Below, piece by piece: positions 44,646 to 49,526 of a stretch of 64,000 bases of DNA. Origin of the DNA: Natronobeatus ordinarius (lineage in GTDB: Archaea > Halobacteriota > Halobacteria > Halobacteriales > Natrialbaceae); assembly GCF_024362485.1 (NCBI RefSeq), contig NZ_CP101456.1, forward strand, positions 434,001 through 498,000, given 5' to 3'. Position 1 is the first letter of the stretch. Every line of letters starts with the position of its first letter. The notes beneath the pieces were generated by a model that saw only the letters and a list, made by a program, of their open reading frames with translations, was not told the DNA's origin and made no database searches. The position numbers and the translations under genes were made by a program.

Positions 44646-45097
44646 GATTCGATGGAGCCGATCGTGATCGGCTCGAGTAGCGTACGTGGTACTCTCAAGC
44701 GTGAGGGGAAAACCCTGTCCACTGTCCGGTGTCCGGCGCGTGATTGCACCATCCGCCCTGTCGTTCCCTGAAAACGTCCTGACGGAGTCCAGCGCGAGTG
44801 AAACGAGCGCTGGGCACGGAAGACGTGAGCGGCAGCGAGCGTCTTCCGGAGATTTGAACTCGTCGAGACGTTCCGGGGTGCTCGCGTCGCTGCGCTCCCG
44901 GGCTGCGACTCGTCTGCTCAAATCTCCGGTATTCCGTTTTCACGCGACGGATACTCGCGCCGCTACGCGGCGCTCGTGAGTTTGTCGCGTGAAAACGTCC
45001 TGACGGAGTTCCACGCGAGCGAAGCGAGCGTGGAGCACGTCAGGACCGAACGCCGAAGCGAGTGCTGAACGACAGTGAAGCACTCGCAAGAAGTGAG
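44646..45097. repeat. tRNA-3'-end fragments in the spacer downstream of tRNA-Arg
   Basis: CGTCCTGACGGAG, which covers the 3' end of the tRNA, recurs at 44775-44787 and 44996-45008 besides the tRNA copy itself. CGGAGATTTGAACTC (T-arm) recurs at 44847-44861, and the same T-arm sequence appears inverted near 44918. The two acceptor-end copies are followed by similar GCGAG...CGAGC palindromes. No gene is seen in the spacer. The scraps look like attachment-site duplicates left by integration at this tRNA. Confidence 0.6.
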
Positions 45098-45170
45098 CGT
45101 CCTGACGGAGATTTGAACTCCGGTCATTGGCTCCGCAAGCCAATAGGATAGTCCACTACCCTATCAGGAC
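45098..45170 (-). tRNA. tRNA-Arg (anticodon GCG)
   Basis: 73 nt on the minus strand. The acceptor stem GTCCTGA/TCAGGAC pairs perfectly with discriminator G. The D-arm is GGGT/ATCC, the anticodon loop TTGCGGA has U33 and anticodon GCG, and the T-arm CGGAG/CTCCG closes a TTCAAAT loop. It reads CGC codons. No CCA is encoded and no intron is present. Confidence 0.95.
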
Positions 45171-45414: not shown

Positions 45415-46818
45415 ATGAGCGACATCGAGGGTGTCTACGAGGACCTCGAGGCCGACGTCTCCCTCGAGGAGTTTCGCGAGGCCGTCGAGGCGAAAGTCGA
45501 GCAGATGGGCGGACTCGCCGATGAGGAGACGGCGGCGATGCTCGTCGCTCACGAACTCGGCGAGAGCGAGGTCGGGGGCGTCGCGGACGTCGAGCCGGGG
45601 ATGGAGGAGGCGAAGTTCGTCGCGAAGGTGACGGCCATCGGCGAGTTGCGGACGTTCGAGCGCGACGGCGAGGACGAGGACGGCCGCGTCGTGAACGTCG
45701 AGGTGGCCGACGAGACCGGTTCCGTCCGCGCGGCGTTCTGGGACGAGCACGCCGAGGCCGCGATCGAGGAACTCGAGGAGGGACAGGTGCTGCGGATCAA
45801 GGGTCGGCCGAAGGAGGGCTTTTCGGGCGTCGAGGTGAGCGTCGACGACGTCGAGGTCGACGAGGACACCGAGATCGACGTGACGGTTTCAGACACGCAC
45901 CAGGTCGAGGACCTCTCGCTCGGCCTCTCGAACGTCAACCTCGTCGGCCTCGTCCTCGACACTGACTCGATCCGGACGTTCGATCGGGACGACGGTTCTG
46001 AGGGCAAGGTGGCGAACCTCACGCTGGGGGACTCGACCGGGCGCGTGCGGGTGACGCTCTGGGACGAGCAGGCCGATCGCGCCGAGGACCTCTCGGCCGG
46101 CACGACGGTCGAGGTGGTCGACGGCTACGTCCGCGAGCGCGACGGCGCCCTCGAGCTCCACGTCGGCAATCGCGGGGCTGTCGAGGAGGTCGACGAGGAG
46201 GTCGAGTACGTCCCCGACAGTACGCCGATCGAGAGCCTCGAGATCGGCCAGACGGTGGACATCGCGGGCGTGGTCCGGTCGGCCGATCCGAAACGGACGT
46301 TCGACCGCGACGACGGTTCGGAGGGCCAGGTCCGGAACGTCCGGGTGCAGGACGCCACGGGCGACATCCGCGTCGCGATGTGGGGCGAGAAGGCCGACGT
46401 CGACGTCGGCCCGGGTGACGAGGTCGCACTCGCGGACGTCGAGATCAAAGACGGCTGGCAGGACGACCTCGAGGCGTCGGCGGGCTGGCGCTCGACGATC
46501 ACGGTGCTCGACGGTGGCGGGCCAGCCGAGCCTGCGGAGACGGCCGAGGAGTCGGCGGGGCTCTCGGCGTTCGCCGACGGCTCGAGCGGCGACGCGAGCG
46601 CGGACGCATCCGCCGAGGCAGCGAGCGACGACGACCCCGACGACGGCGAGGAACTCGAGTTCACGGGCGTCGTCGTCCAGGCGGGAAGTCCGGTCGTCCT
46701 CGACAACGGCGAGGAGACGATGAGCGTCGAGACCGACGCCGACGTCGGGTTGGGCGAGGAAGTGACTGCCCGCGGGGTCGTCCGGGATGGGCGACTCGAG
46801 GCGAACGACGTCTTCTGA
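45415..46818 (+). CDS. rpa2: RPA-like single-stranded-DNA-binding protein with three OB folds
   Basis: 467 residues from the ATG at 45415. Three consecutive OB folds lie at about 60-160, 170-265 and 280-375, each with the RTFxRDDGxEGxVxNxxxxDxTGxxRxxxWxE signature (for example RTFDRDDGSEGKVANLTLGD). An acidic linker and a fourth small OB-like domain end the protein. It protects and presents ssDNA in replication and repair. Layout matches haloarchaeal Rpa2. Standalone, upstream of the histone gene. Confidence 0.92.
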   Translation: MSDIEGVYEDLEADVSLEEFREAVEAKVEQMGGLADEETAAMLVAHELGESEVGGVADVEPGMEEAKFVAKVTAIGELRTFERDGEDEDGRVVNVEVADETGSVRAAFWDEHAEAAIEELEEGQVLRIKGRPKEGFSGVEVSVDDVEVDEDTEIDVTVSDTHQVEDLSLGLSNVNLVGLVLDTDSIRTFDRDDGSEGKVANLTLGDSTGRVRVTLWDEQADRAEDLSAGTTVEVVDGYVRERDGALELHVGNRGAVEEVDEEVEYVPDSTPIESLEIGQTVDIAGVVRSADPKRTFDRDDGSEGQVRNVRVQDATGDIRVAMWGEKADVDVGPGDEVALADVEIKDGWQDDLEASAGWRSTITVLDGGGPAEPAETAEESAGLSAFADGSSGDASADASAEAASDDDPDDGEELEFTGVVVQAGSPVVLDNGEETMSVETDADVGLGEEVTARGVVRDGRLEANDVF

Positions 46819-46881
46819 GCCGGCTACGAGTCCGATCCCACTAGGAAAACGATTAAGGGTGTCAACTGCACGCGTTACAGT

Positions 46882-47313
46882 ATGAACGTCGAGTTGCCGT
46901 TCGCTCCGGTGGACACGATCATCCGGCGGAACGCGGGGGGCCTCCGGGTGAGCGCCGACGCGTCGAAGGAGCTCGCAAAGCGCATCCAGGAACACGGTGC
47001 CGAACTCGCAGCCGACGCGGCAGAACGGGCGACCGAAGACGGCCGGAAAACGCTGATGGCGGAGGACTTCGGCGTCGAGCTGGTCGTCGACACGGACGAT
47101 CTCGAGTTGCCGGTCGCGCCGGTCGACCGGATCGCACGGATCGACATCGACGGTCGCTACCGCGTCTCGATGGAAGCGCGCGTCGCCCTCGCTGACATTC
47201 TCGAAGACTACGCCGACAACGTCGCCCGAGCGGCGGCGACACTCGCCCGTCACGCCGACCGACGAACCATCAAAGCCGAGGACATCGAGACGTACTTCTC
47301 GCTGTTCGAGTGA
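46882..47313 (+). CDS. hstA: Fused double-fold histone
   Basis: 143 residues: two histone folds in one chain, the haloarchaeal form. Fold 1 begins LPFAPVDTIIRRNAGGLRVS and contains KTLMAEDFGVEL; fold 2 begins LPVAPVDRIARIDIDGRYRV and contains RTIKAEDIETYF. The surface is acidic, as in other halophile histones. The transcript continues into the deacetylase-family gene 3 bp later. Confidence 0.96.
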   Translation: MNVELPFAPVDTIIRRNAGGLRVSADASKELAKRIQEHGAELAADAAERATEDGRKTLMAEDFGVELVVDTDDLELPVAPVDRIARIDIDGRYRVSMEARVALADILEDYADNVARAAATLARHADRRTIKAEDIETYFSLFE

Positions 47314-47316
47314 CCG

Positions 47317-48327
47317 ATGCGATTCGGCTACAGCGACACCTGTCTCGCGCACGATCCCGGCCCCCGCCACCCGGAGACGCCCGACCGGCTCCGGGCGATC
47401 CGTGAGGGTCTGAAGCGCAAGCACGGGGTCGAATACACCGACGCCGATCCCGCCTCCGTCGAAGCGATCGCTGCCGTTCACGACCGGGGATACGTCGAGT
47501 CGGTCCAGGAGTTCTGTGCGGACGGTGGCGGGAACTGGGATCCGGACACGACGGCGGTGCCCCAGACGTGGGATGCAGCCGTCAAGAGCGCCGGACTGGC
47601 CTGCTGGGCCGCAGCGCGCGCACTCGAGGGTGACGACGGCCGGGAGACGCCGTTCTCGCTCGGACGGCCGCCGGGTCACCACGCAGTGTACGACGACGCC
47701 ATGGGCTTTTGTTTCGTCAACAACGTCGCGGTCGCCGCCCAGCACGCCCTCGACGATTTCGACTGTGACCGGGTCGCGATCGTCGACTGGGACGTCCACC
47801 ACGGCAACGGCACCCAGGACCTCTTCTACGATCGTGGCGACGTCTTCTTCGTCTCGATCCACGAGGGTGGCCTCTACCCCGGAACCGGTGACGTCGACGA
47901 GGTCGGCGAGGGAGACGGCGAGGGGGCGACGATGAATCTCCCGATGCCCGCCGGCGCCGACGACGTCGACTATCTGGCGGCATTCGACGACCTGATCTGC
48001 CCCGCCCTCGAGTCGTACGACCCCGACCTCCTGCTCGTCAGCGCGGGCTTCGACGCCCACCGTCACGATCCCATCTCGCGGGTTCGGCTCCCGACGGAAA
48101 CGTACGCACTGATGACCGACCGGCTTCGATCTGCGGCCGAGGCGACCGACGCCGCCCTGGCGTTCGTCCTCGAGGGCGGCTACGCGCTGGACGTACTCGC
48201 CGAGAGTATCGCCCTAGTCCACGAGACGTTCGACGGCCGCGAACCGATCGAGCAGGAGGGTGAGGTGAGAGACGCCGTCGAGGAGATCCTCGCGGACATC
48301 GCGGACGCCCACGACCTCGAGTACTGA
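47317..48327 (+). CDS. Histone-deacetylase/AcuC-family zinc hydrolase
   Basis: 336 residues. RPPGHHA carries the paired active-site histidines, and VDWDVHHGNGTQDLF the zinc-binding Asp and His; ASGFDxH is present as SAGFDAHRHDP. Full-length domain with no extra parts, closest to the class II/AcuC-like bacterial and archaeal group. It could remove acetyl groups from lysine or from small amines. Starting 3 bp after the histone stop, it is co-transcribed with it. Confidence 0.95.
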   Translation: MRFGYSDTCLAHDPGPRHPETPDRLRAIREGLKRKHGVEYTDADPASVEAIAAVHDRGYVESVQEFCADGGGNWDPDTTAVPQTWDAAVKSAGLACWAAARALEGDDGRETPFSLGRPPGHHAVYDDAMGFCFVNNVAVAAQHALDDFDCDRVAIVDWDVHHGNGTQDLFYDRGDVFFVSIHEGGLYPGTGDVDEVGEGDGEGATMNLPMPAGADDVDYLAAFDDLICPALESYDPDLLLVSAGFDAHRHDPISRVRLPTETYALMTDRLRSAAEATDAALAFVLEGGYALDVLAESIALVHETFDGREPIEQEGEVRDAVEEILADIADAHDLEY

Positions 48328-48368: not shown

Positions 48369-49388
48369 CTACAGCCGCTGCAGCGCCCCGATCGCGCTCG
48401 AGAGCGGCGGTGCGTCGAACAGTTCCAGGCCGGTGTAGGCGTTGGTGCCGGCACAGTACATGTCGCGGGCAGTGTCGACGACGTCCTCCTCGAGCGGTTC
48501 CGGTTCGGCCTCACACAGTGCCTTCCAGTCGGCGACGTCGCGTGCTTTCGCCTCGGCTTTCGCAGCTTCGACGGCCTCGACCCACCCGGGCTGGGTTCGC
48601 TTGTGGTACTGGCGGATCACCTCCTTCGAGAGCTGGGTCCCCTCGTAGCTGAAGCGGTTCTCGTCGAACGTACCGACGACGTCGGCGACGCGGATCTCGC
48701 CGTCGTAGTACAGACACTCGATCTTGCCGTCTTCGTGAACCAGCCCCGCCGATTCGGCCTGCTCGGTGACGACTCGGTTCACCTCGCGGGCGATGACCTC
48801 GAGGGCGTCGATCTCCGCCACGCCGGCGATGTAATCGGCTTCCTCACGATCGAGATAGCGGTCGCCCTCCTCGTACTTCGTGGAGAACTCGACGATCGGC
48901 TCCTCGAGGTCGACGGCCTCCGCGGGCCACGTCTCGAAGTCGAGGCCGTGGTCGGCTGGCTCGGTCCGTCGCCGCAGACTCGAGCCCACGGGCACGCGAT
49001 TGCGGAAGACGATCTCGAGGGGGACGAGGTAGTTCTCGCCCGCCGCGGCGTGGTAGGCGTCGTAATCGTACGCCCGGCCCTCGTGTGGGAGGTCGGGAAC
49101 CTGCGTGAGGTCGATCGCCATCTCCCAGGGCGGACGGGACGCGTCCTCGAGCGAGAGGACGTCTCCGTTCTCGACAACGCCGCGGTAGTGCGTTGGGATT
49201 CCGGACTCCTCGAGTCGCTCGAAATTGAACGCACCCATCGTACAGAGGCTCGCGCCCTTGTCCGGAATCTGGTCGGGCATCTGTCCCCAGTCGAACACCG
49301 AGTAGGCGTCCGTAAAGACGAACGATCCCCGACCGACCGAATCAGCCGTCGCCTCCTCCTCGATCCGGAACTCCTTGACACTCGTCAC
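48369..49388 (-). CDS. purC: SAICAR synthetase (purine biosynthesis)
   Basis: 339 residues from the GTG at 49388 (VTSVKEFRIEEEA); a second GTG 9 nt upstream gives three more residues. It joins aspartate to CAIR. SVFDWGQMPDQIPDKG and VPLEIVFRNRVPVGSSLRRR are PurC signatures, and the protein is longer than the bacterial form as in other haloarchaea. A TATA-like TATGTAT lies 27 nt before the upstream GTG, so the exact start is uncertain. Confidence 0.95.
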   Translation of the reverse strand: MTSVKEFRIEEEATADSVGRGSFVFTDAYSVFDWGQMPDQIPDKGASLCTMGAFNFERLEESGIPTHYRGVVENGDVLSLEDASRPPWEMAIDLTQVPDLPHEGRAYDYDAYHAAAGENYLVPLEIVFRNRVPVGSSLRRRTEPADHGLDFETWPAEAVDLEEPIVEFSTKYEEGDRYLDREEADYIAGVAEIDALEVIAREVNRVVTEQAESAGLVHEDGKIECLYYDGEIRVADVVGTFDENRFSYEGTQLSKEVIRQYHKRTQPGWVEAVEAAKAEAKARDVADWKALCEAEPEPLEEDVVDTARDMYCAGTNAYTGLELFDAPPLSSAIGALQRL

Positions 49389-49526
49389 GCGAAACACCTC
49401 GCCGGGCGGCCGCCACGATACATACTCGAGTTGCCGGGGCGACGGGTCAAGAAGGTTTCAGTCTCGGATCGGAAACCGACGACTGTCGCCGCGCAGGAGC
49501 GCGGGTGAGTCGGGTCGAATCCTGGG

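Follow-up and report, generated by a model that had tools for sequence, protein, structure and literature searches.

In H. volcanii, a doublet histone gene, hstA (HVO_0520), is coupled to hdaI (HVO_0522), a gene for a class II-type histone deacetylase (HDAC); the hdaI gene overlaps the histone gene and both are co-transcribed, as reported in a 2010 review (PMC2946573). According to the same review, HdaI (Hvo_0522) could not be deleted, and the histone was proposed as its substrate with proof missing at that date. Haloarchaeal histones of the HpyA/HstA kind are doublets, as is the histone of Methanopyrus kandleri (1f1e), which holds two folds in one chain. HDAC6, the bacterial HdaH and the lysine deacylase 5zmp are solved representatives of the enzyme fold and its zinc site. 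An archaeal chromatin protein under deacetylase control is also described in Sulfolobus (Alba-Sir2); unlike the pair analyzed here, that system joins a different chromatin protein to an NAD-dependent enzyme.

The window, a 64,000-nucleotide stretch of the Natronobeatus ordinarius genome (contig NZ_CP101456.1, positions 434,001 to 498,000), likewise carries a doublet histone gene coupled to an HDAC gene. Direct reading of the open reading frames gives the + strand order RPA, histone, HDAC-family gene, all three intact, among the following features.

45097-45170: tRNA-Arg, upstream of the RPA gene
45415..46818, + strand: RPA-type single-stranded DNA-binding protein, 467 aa, several OB folds (NF005551, PF01336, PF16900)
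46844..46856, + strand: BRE/TATA-like box ahead of the histone-deacetylase unit, spanning -38 to -26 relative to the histone ATG; the unit would be near-leaderless
46882..47313, + strand: doublet archaeal histone, 143 aa, stop TGA (PF00808, two stretches)
47047..47049, + strand: codon of K56, loop L2 of fold 1 (R-K-T), K in 173/173 histones
47263..47265, + strand: codon of R128, equivalent L2 position of fold 2 (R-R-T), R in 171 and K in 2 of 173
47317..48327, + strand: HDAC-superfamily zinc deacetylase, HdaI type, class II-like, 336 aa (PF00850)
48369-49397, - strand (opposite): purC, downstream of the HDAC gene

The histone and HDAC genes form a bicistron of the hstA-hdaI kind, adjacent, on the same strand and nearly overlapping: a gap of 3 bp (CCG) precedes the HDAC ATG at 47317, which bears out the tight spacing claimed in an earlier note on this DNA. 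Whereas the H. volcanii pair overlaps, the window pair has this short gap, and whereas cca is the usual downstream gene in hstA-hdaI loci, purC follows in the window; orthology with the H. volcanii pair rests on synteny and a class-wide clade. The window histone is taken as the HstA/HpyA orthologue, by synteny and by its doublet kind, and its best solved fold match is the M. kandleri histone, at 27% identity. The window HDAC has fold and zinc site in common with HDAC6, HdaH and 5zmp, at ~29-36% identity. Pairing of histone and HDAC is the norm in the class and was known before from H. volcanii; added here are its near-universality, its losses, a promoter-like box, an older neighborhood and a narrowing of the histone lysines to K56.

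The gene preceding the histone encodes a single-stranded DNA-binding protein, as the earlier note had stated (783 bits against NF005551, cut-off 575), and its start at 45415 is consistent with a TATA-like stretch ~30 bp upstream, seen by eye. Aligned on the histone ATG across 178 loci, the box ahead of the histone is A-rich from -36 to -33 and reads TTAA from -29 to -26, with A or T at -28 and -27 in 178/178 loci and G at -37 in 88%; no comparable box was found ahead of the HDAC gene in the 178 loci. The distance between RPA and histone ranges from 39 to 2212 bp (207 loci). Because a conserved BRE/TATA-like box sits before the histone, the RPA gene probably lies outside the unit, and the variable RPA distance together with this box indicates that the unit consists of histone and deacetylase, with RPA as a neighbor. 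RPA as an operon member is thus not supported, and the proposal of one operon stands for the histone and HDAC genes without extending to RPA. We infer that the two genes are co-transcribed in N. ordinarius as they are in H. volcanii.

PF00850 and PF00808 are each present in all of 194 evenly drawn Halobacteria genomes (194/194), and histone and HDAC are linked in 191/194, with 3 unlinked; gene order, whose loss the earlier note would have counted against its reading, is conserved. Both domains appeared among the matches listed for 112 genomes. In 108 of these they lie 68-99 bp apart on the same strand, an assignment made by domain coordinates, with part of the loci also read gene by gene; they are on the same strand 233 and 692 bp apart in G172 and G131, and unlinked in G007 and G021. 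On reading, the 36 genomes listed for HDAC only proved to be 35 with adjacent genes and one, G001, with unlinked genes, and the genes are adjacent in all 38 listed for the histone only and all 8 listed for neither domain. Both genes are carried by 215 of 226 loci, some of them repeats of one genome, which reduce to 180 distinct pairs. Overlaps of 1 or 4 bp occur in 40 of them, gaps of 0-10 bp in 129 and gaps of 11-40 bp in 5, leaving 6 of other kinds. The gap therefore falls between -4 and 40 bp in 174/180 pairs, and the many close or overlapping pairs indicate that the close spacing is no accident. The six odd pairs comprise gaps of 137, 144 and 158 bp, a gap of 605 bp seen twice in one genome (G131), and one apparent fusion.

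The three unlinked genomes keep the family. G001 and G007, from one genus, retain RPA followed by the histone, without an HDAC gene after it; in G007 a gene for a CCA-adding enzyme follows the histone on the opposite strand. In G021 the histone lies ~3.7 kb from RPA on the opposite strand, and in G194 (72% complete, of the G007 genus) there is no HDAC within 3.2 kb around the histone. G001, G007 and G021 each have an HDAC elsewhere, ~39-40% identical to that of the window, and these unlinked enzymes form their own clade (100/100), joined by the second HDAC of G093, a genome that also has a linked copy; the program flagged long branches in this tree, and where the outgroup joins it is unsure. 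That the enzyme moved in the loss lineages, instead of being replaced, is not supported, since the unlinked copies are a separate clade. Because the three unlinked genomes each retain an HDAC, the class, as sampled in 194 genomes, keeps the family and can forgo the linkage, and the presence of PF00850 in every genome, loss genomes included, fits an essential function independent of the histone locus. Identity to the window proteins is 55-59% for the histones of G001, G007, G194 and G021 and 54-64% for their RPA. These histones (loci L142, L144, L235, L246; genomes G007, G021, G001, G194) are among the most diverged found. We do not claim faster histone evolution after loss of the linked enzyme: only two lineages are involved, and the histones of the linked genomes G093 and G002 stand at 63% and 59%.

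Outside the class the two genes can be found in a looser arrangement. A phylum sample of 148 genomes, 24 of them Halobacteria, contains HDAC in 136/148 and the histone in 145/148. At least 81 non-Halobacteria genomes have both genes, at least 26 of them on one contig among the matches listed; in 8 of these 26, from four families, a stretch of 0.8-4.5 kb that holds other genes separates histone and HDAC, the two being always on the same strand and the histone first. A ninth similar locus, in G257, lies at a contig end. The cca gene stands beside the HDAC gene or one to two genes off in all five outgroup loci read gene by gene (calls confirmed by Pfam in 3/5, along with the class query), and it follows the HDAC gene in 57/69 full-length class loci. 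The linkage looks like an old neighborhood of histone, HDAC and cca that was tightened to a bicistron in the ancestor of Halobacteria. Outside the class, loci L249-L256 combine the histone and HDAC genes with cca and thpR-like (LigT) genes, and what lies in between varies.

The window HDAC matches PF00850 (Hist_deacetyl) over the whole domain at 294 bits (cut-off 27.9); it is the one PF00850 copy in the source genome, which also has one Sir2, away from the locus. Residues H121, H122, D159, H161, D246 and Y289 are invariant in 178/178 aligned rows, and we take them to supply the His-His dyad, the zinc ligands D-x-H and D, and the catalytic Tyr. The catalytic site is intact. An AlphaFold2 model (mean pLDDT 92) has the HDAC fold, with 448 PDB matches at E<=0.001 and 5zmp at the top (6.6e-30). 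The leading solved matches are the lysine deacylase 5zmp, bacterial HdaH, HDA15 and HDAC6, the best matches by sequence among solved structures are HDAC6 chains, and the solved relatives also include acetylpolyamine amidohydrolases, propanil hydrolase and dimethoate hydrolase. We predict a lysine deacetylase whose substrate is not readable from motifs, model or structural relatives.

The essentiality of hdaI goes back to one 2009 study. A companion claim of that study, the lethality of pat2 elp3, was later revised, as described in PMC12323606. The histone gene hstA is reported to be readily deleted, with an area under the growth curve of 84% of the parent (PMC10128011), and HstA is described as being of low abundance (PMC10626798, PMC11894787). 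Because hstA is deletable and hdaI reportedly is not, lost histone function cannot explain the essentiality of HdaI. This mismatch speaks for vital substrates other than the histone. The alternative is a toxic acetylated histone, which would make its deacetylase essential although the histone itself is dispensable.

The window histone matches PF00808 in two stretches (97 bits), and its AlphaFold2 model (mean pLDDT 95.4) accommodates two histone folds in 143 residues, with R-(K/R)-T in the L2 loops of both (R55-K56-T57 and R127-R128-T129). The earlier note had described acetylatable lysines in the histone as few and had pointed to some by sequence. They are few indeed: K29, K33, K56 and K131 in the window, and a mean of 2.5 per histone among 173 unique linked histones. 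K56 is a lysine in 173/173, the sole invariant one, and in the 40/173 histones with a single lysine that lysine is always K56; K131 is a lysine in 46/173. The lysines that the note had named thus part ways, K56 being invariant while K29 and K33 are poorly conserved, at 34/173 (20%) and 17/173 (10%), and we reject the latter two as acetylation sites. On this alignment K56 would be the only plausible conserved acetylation site in the histone. In the model it falls within the loop that joins the long helix of fold 1 (25-52) to the last helix of that fold (from 60), and by the R-K-T motif it would correspond to K53 of HMfB, which forms a salt bridge with E18 as reported in PMC8775648. The equivalents of E18 are L21 in fold 1 (L in 172/173) and Y/F93 in fold 2, so the salt-bridge reason for keeping a lysine is absent here. 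A lysine retained for reversible modification would likewise be consistent with the strict K of fold 1 and the near-strict R of fold 2. The position is, however, lysine well beyond the linked enzyme: in all 27 of 30 outgroup histones readable by pattern, among them 4/4 from genomes without PF00850, used as a negative control, and in the loss lineages. It is R in three outgroup loci that also hold an HDAC (L251, L252, L258). Because K56 is kept in genomes without PF00850, its conservation does not show acetylation, and the invariance is weakened as evidence for it.

We consider it probable that the window holds an hstA-hdaI pair expressed as a two-gene message, whose enzyme is a general, essential protein-lysine deacetylase with vital substrates that are not (or not only) the histone. 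One message carrying histone and HDAC would start from a promoter of its own, placed directly downstream of the RPA gene, so that a doublet histone, low-abundance and transcription-factor-like in studied relatives, would be made alongside a zinc-dependent lysine deacetylase. The histone would be at most one substrate of this broadly acting enzyme. If the histone is a substrate, K56 in the DNA-contacting loop L2 would be the sole site conserved enough, and its acetylation may weaken DNA binding that deacetylation would then restore. Possible, though on balance doubtful, is that the genes share a neighborhood and no substrate, kept together by descent and by common expression with DNA-housekeeping genes while the enzyme acts on unrelated proteins. 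The spaced histone and HDAC genes and nearby cca of outgroup loci agree with this, as do cca after HDAC within the class and the wide gaps there (137-158 bp in three Halorussus-type loci, 605 bp in G131); the overlaps in 40/180 pairs and the retention in 191/194 genomes nonetheless exceed usual neutral drift.

The earlier note had suggested that the enzyme acts on the histone or on chromatin-bound proteins. The class-wide linkage, the catalytic motifs and the co-transcription published for H. volcanii lend this partial support, but the histone as substrate is not borne out: K29 and K33 are rarely lysine, K56 is kept without the enzyme, and the histone is dispensable. A dedicated histone switch, in which coupled translation matches enzyme to histone and deacetylation of K56 lets loop L2 of fold 1 grip DNA while the unmodifiable R128 holds on at the far end, strikes us as unlikely. 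It would account for an invariant K56 despite so low a mean lysine count, for the R at the paired fold 2 position in 171/173, and for a lysine kept where the HMfB-type E18 partner is absent; yet K56 is ancestral and outlives loss of the linked enzyme, R replaces it in outgroup loci with HDAC nearby, the histone is deletable where the enzyme reportedly is not, and an acetylated haloarchaeal histone was not found in the literature searched. We hold it quite unlikely that a one-site form of this switch applies, with DNA contact at one end of the doublet toggled by K56 acetylation and its removal by the translationally coupled HdaI, the other end locked by arginine and the acetyl-histone toxic without the enzyme, although it would, if true, explain an essential enzyme beside a non-essential histone. 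Very unlikely, in our view, is that the key substrate is the neighboring RPA or another replication or repair protein: RPA has more conserved sites than the histone (K71 invariant in 149/149, five more lysines above 92%) and the enzyme's best sequence matches are HDAC6 chains, but conserved lysines are expected anyway in DNA-binding OB folds, and RPA stands at a variable distance from the histone and ahead of a separate promoter-like box. That the enzyme works on small molecules, deacylating polyamines or other amides and not proteins, we regard as highly improbable; the amidohydrolases and hydrolases among its solved relatives favor it, whereas the top matches are 5zmp, HdaH, HDA15 and HDAC6, and a second-hand report describes trichostatin A sensitivity of H. 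volcanii.

In vivo acetylation of a histone lysine is reported in Thermococcales (PMC8775648), so archaeal histone acetylation exists. The literature searched, which covered few subscription papers, contained neither a haloarchaeal histone described as acetylated nor a strain lacking both hstA and hdaI, and the main text of an H. volcanii acetylome paper makes no mention of HstA, HVO_0520 or HdaI (PMC10294847). Whether acetylation controls archaeal histones matters for how eukaryotic chromatin control arose, and the locus is a strong genomic hint of such regulation in Halobacteria; should the HDAC not act on the histone, its essential target would be another one.

The odd spacings have features of their own. 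The apparent fusion (L058, from the metagenome-assembled genome Halobacteriales archaeon SW_6_65_15) joins a histone with a truncated end and the HDAC in one in-frame ORF on one metagenome contig; as a natural fusion it was rejected as probably an assembly fault, given the single contig and the shortened histone end. The 605-bp spacer of L146 (G131) resembles, by eye, an insertion element remnant. The Halorussus-type loci L056, L069 and L147 (gaps 137-158 bp) have a TTAAATTCC box in common, which may serve the HDAC as a separate promoter. In the window, purC occupies the position where cca stands in most relatives, and its place beside the HDAC gene is a local change.
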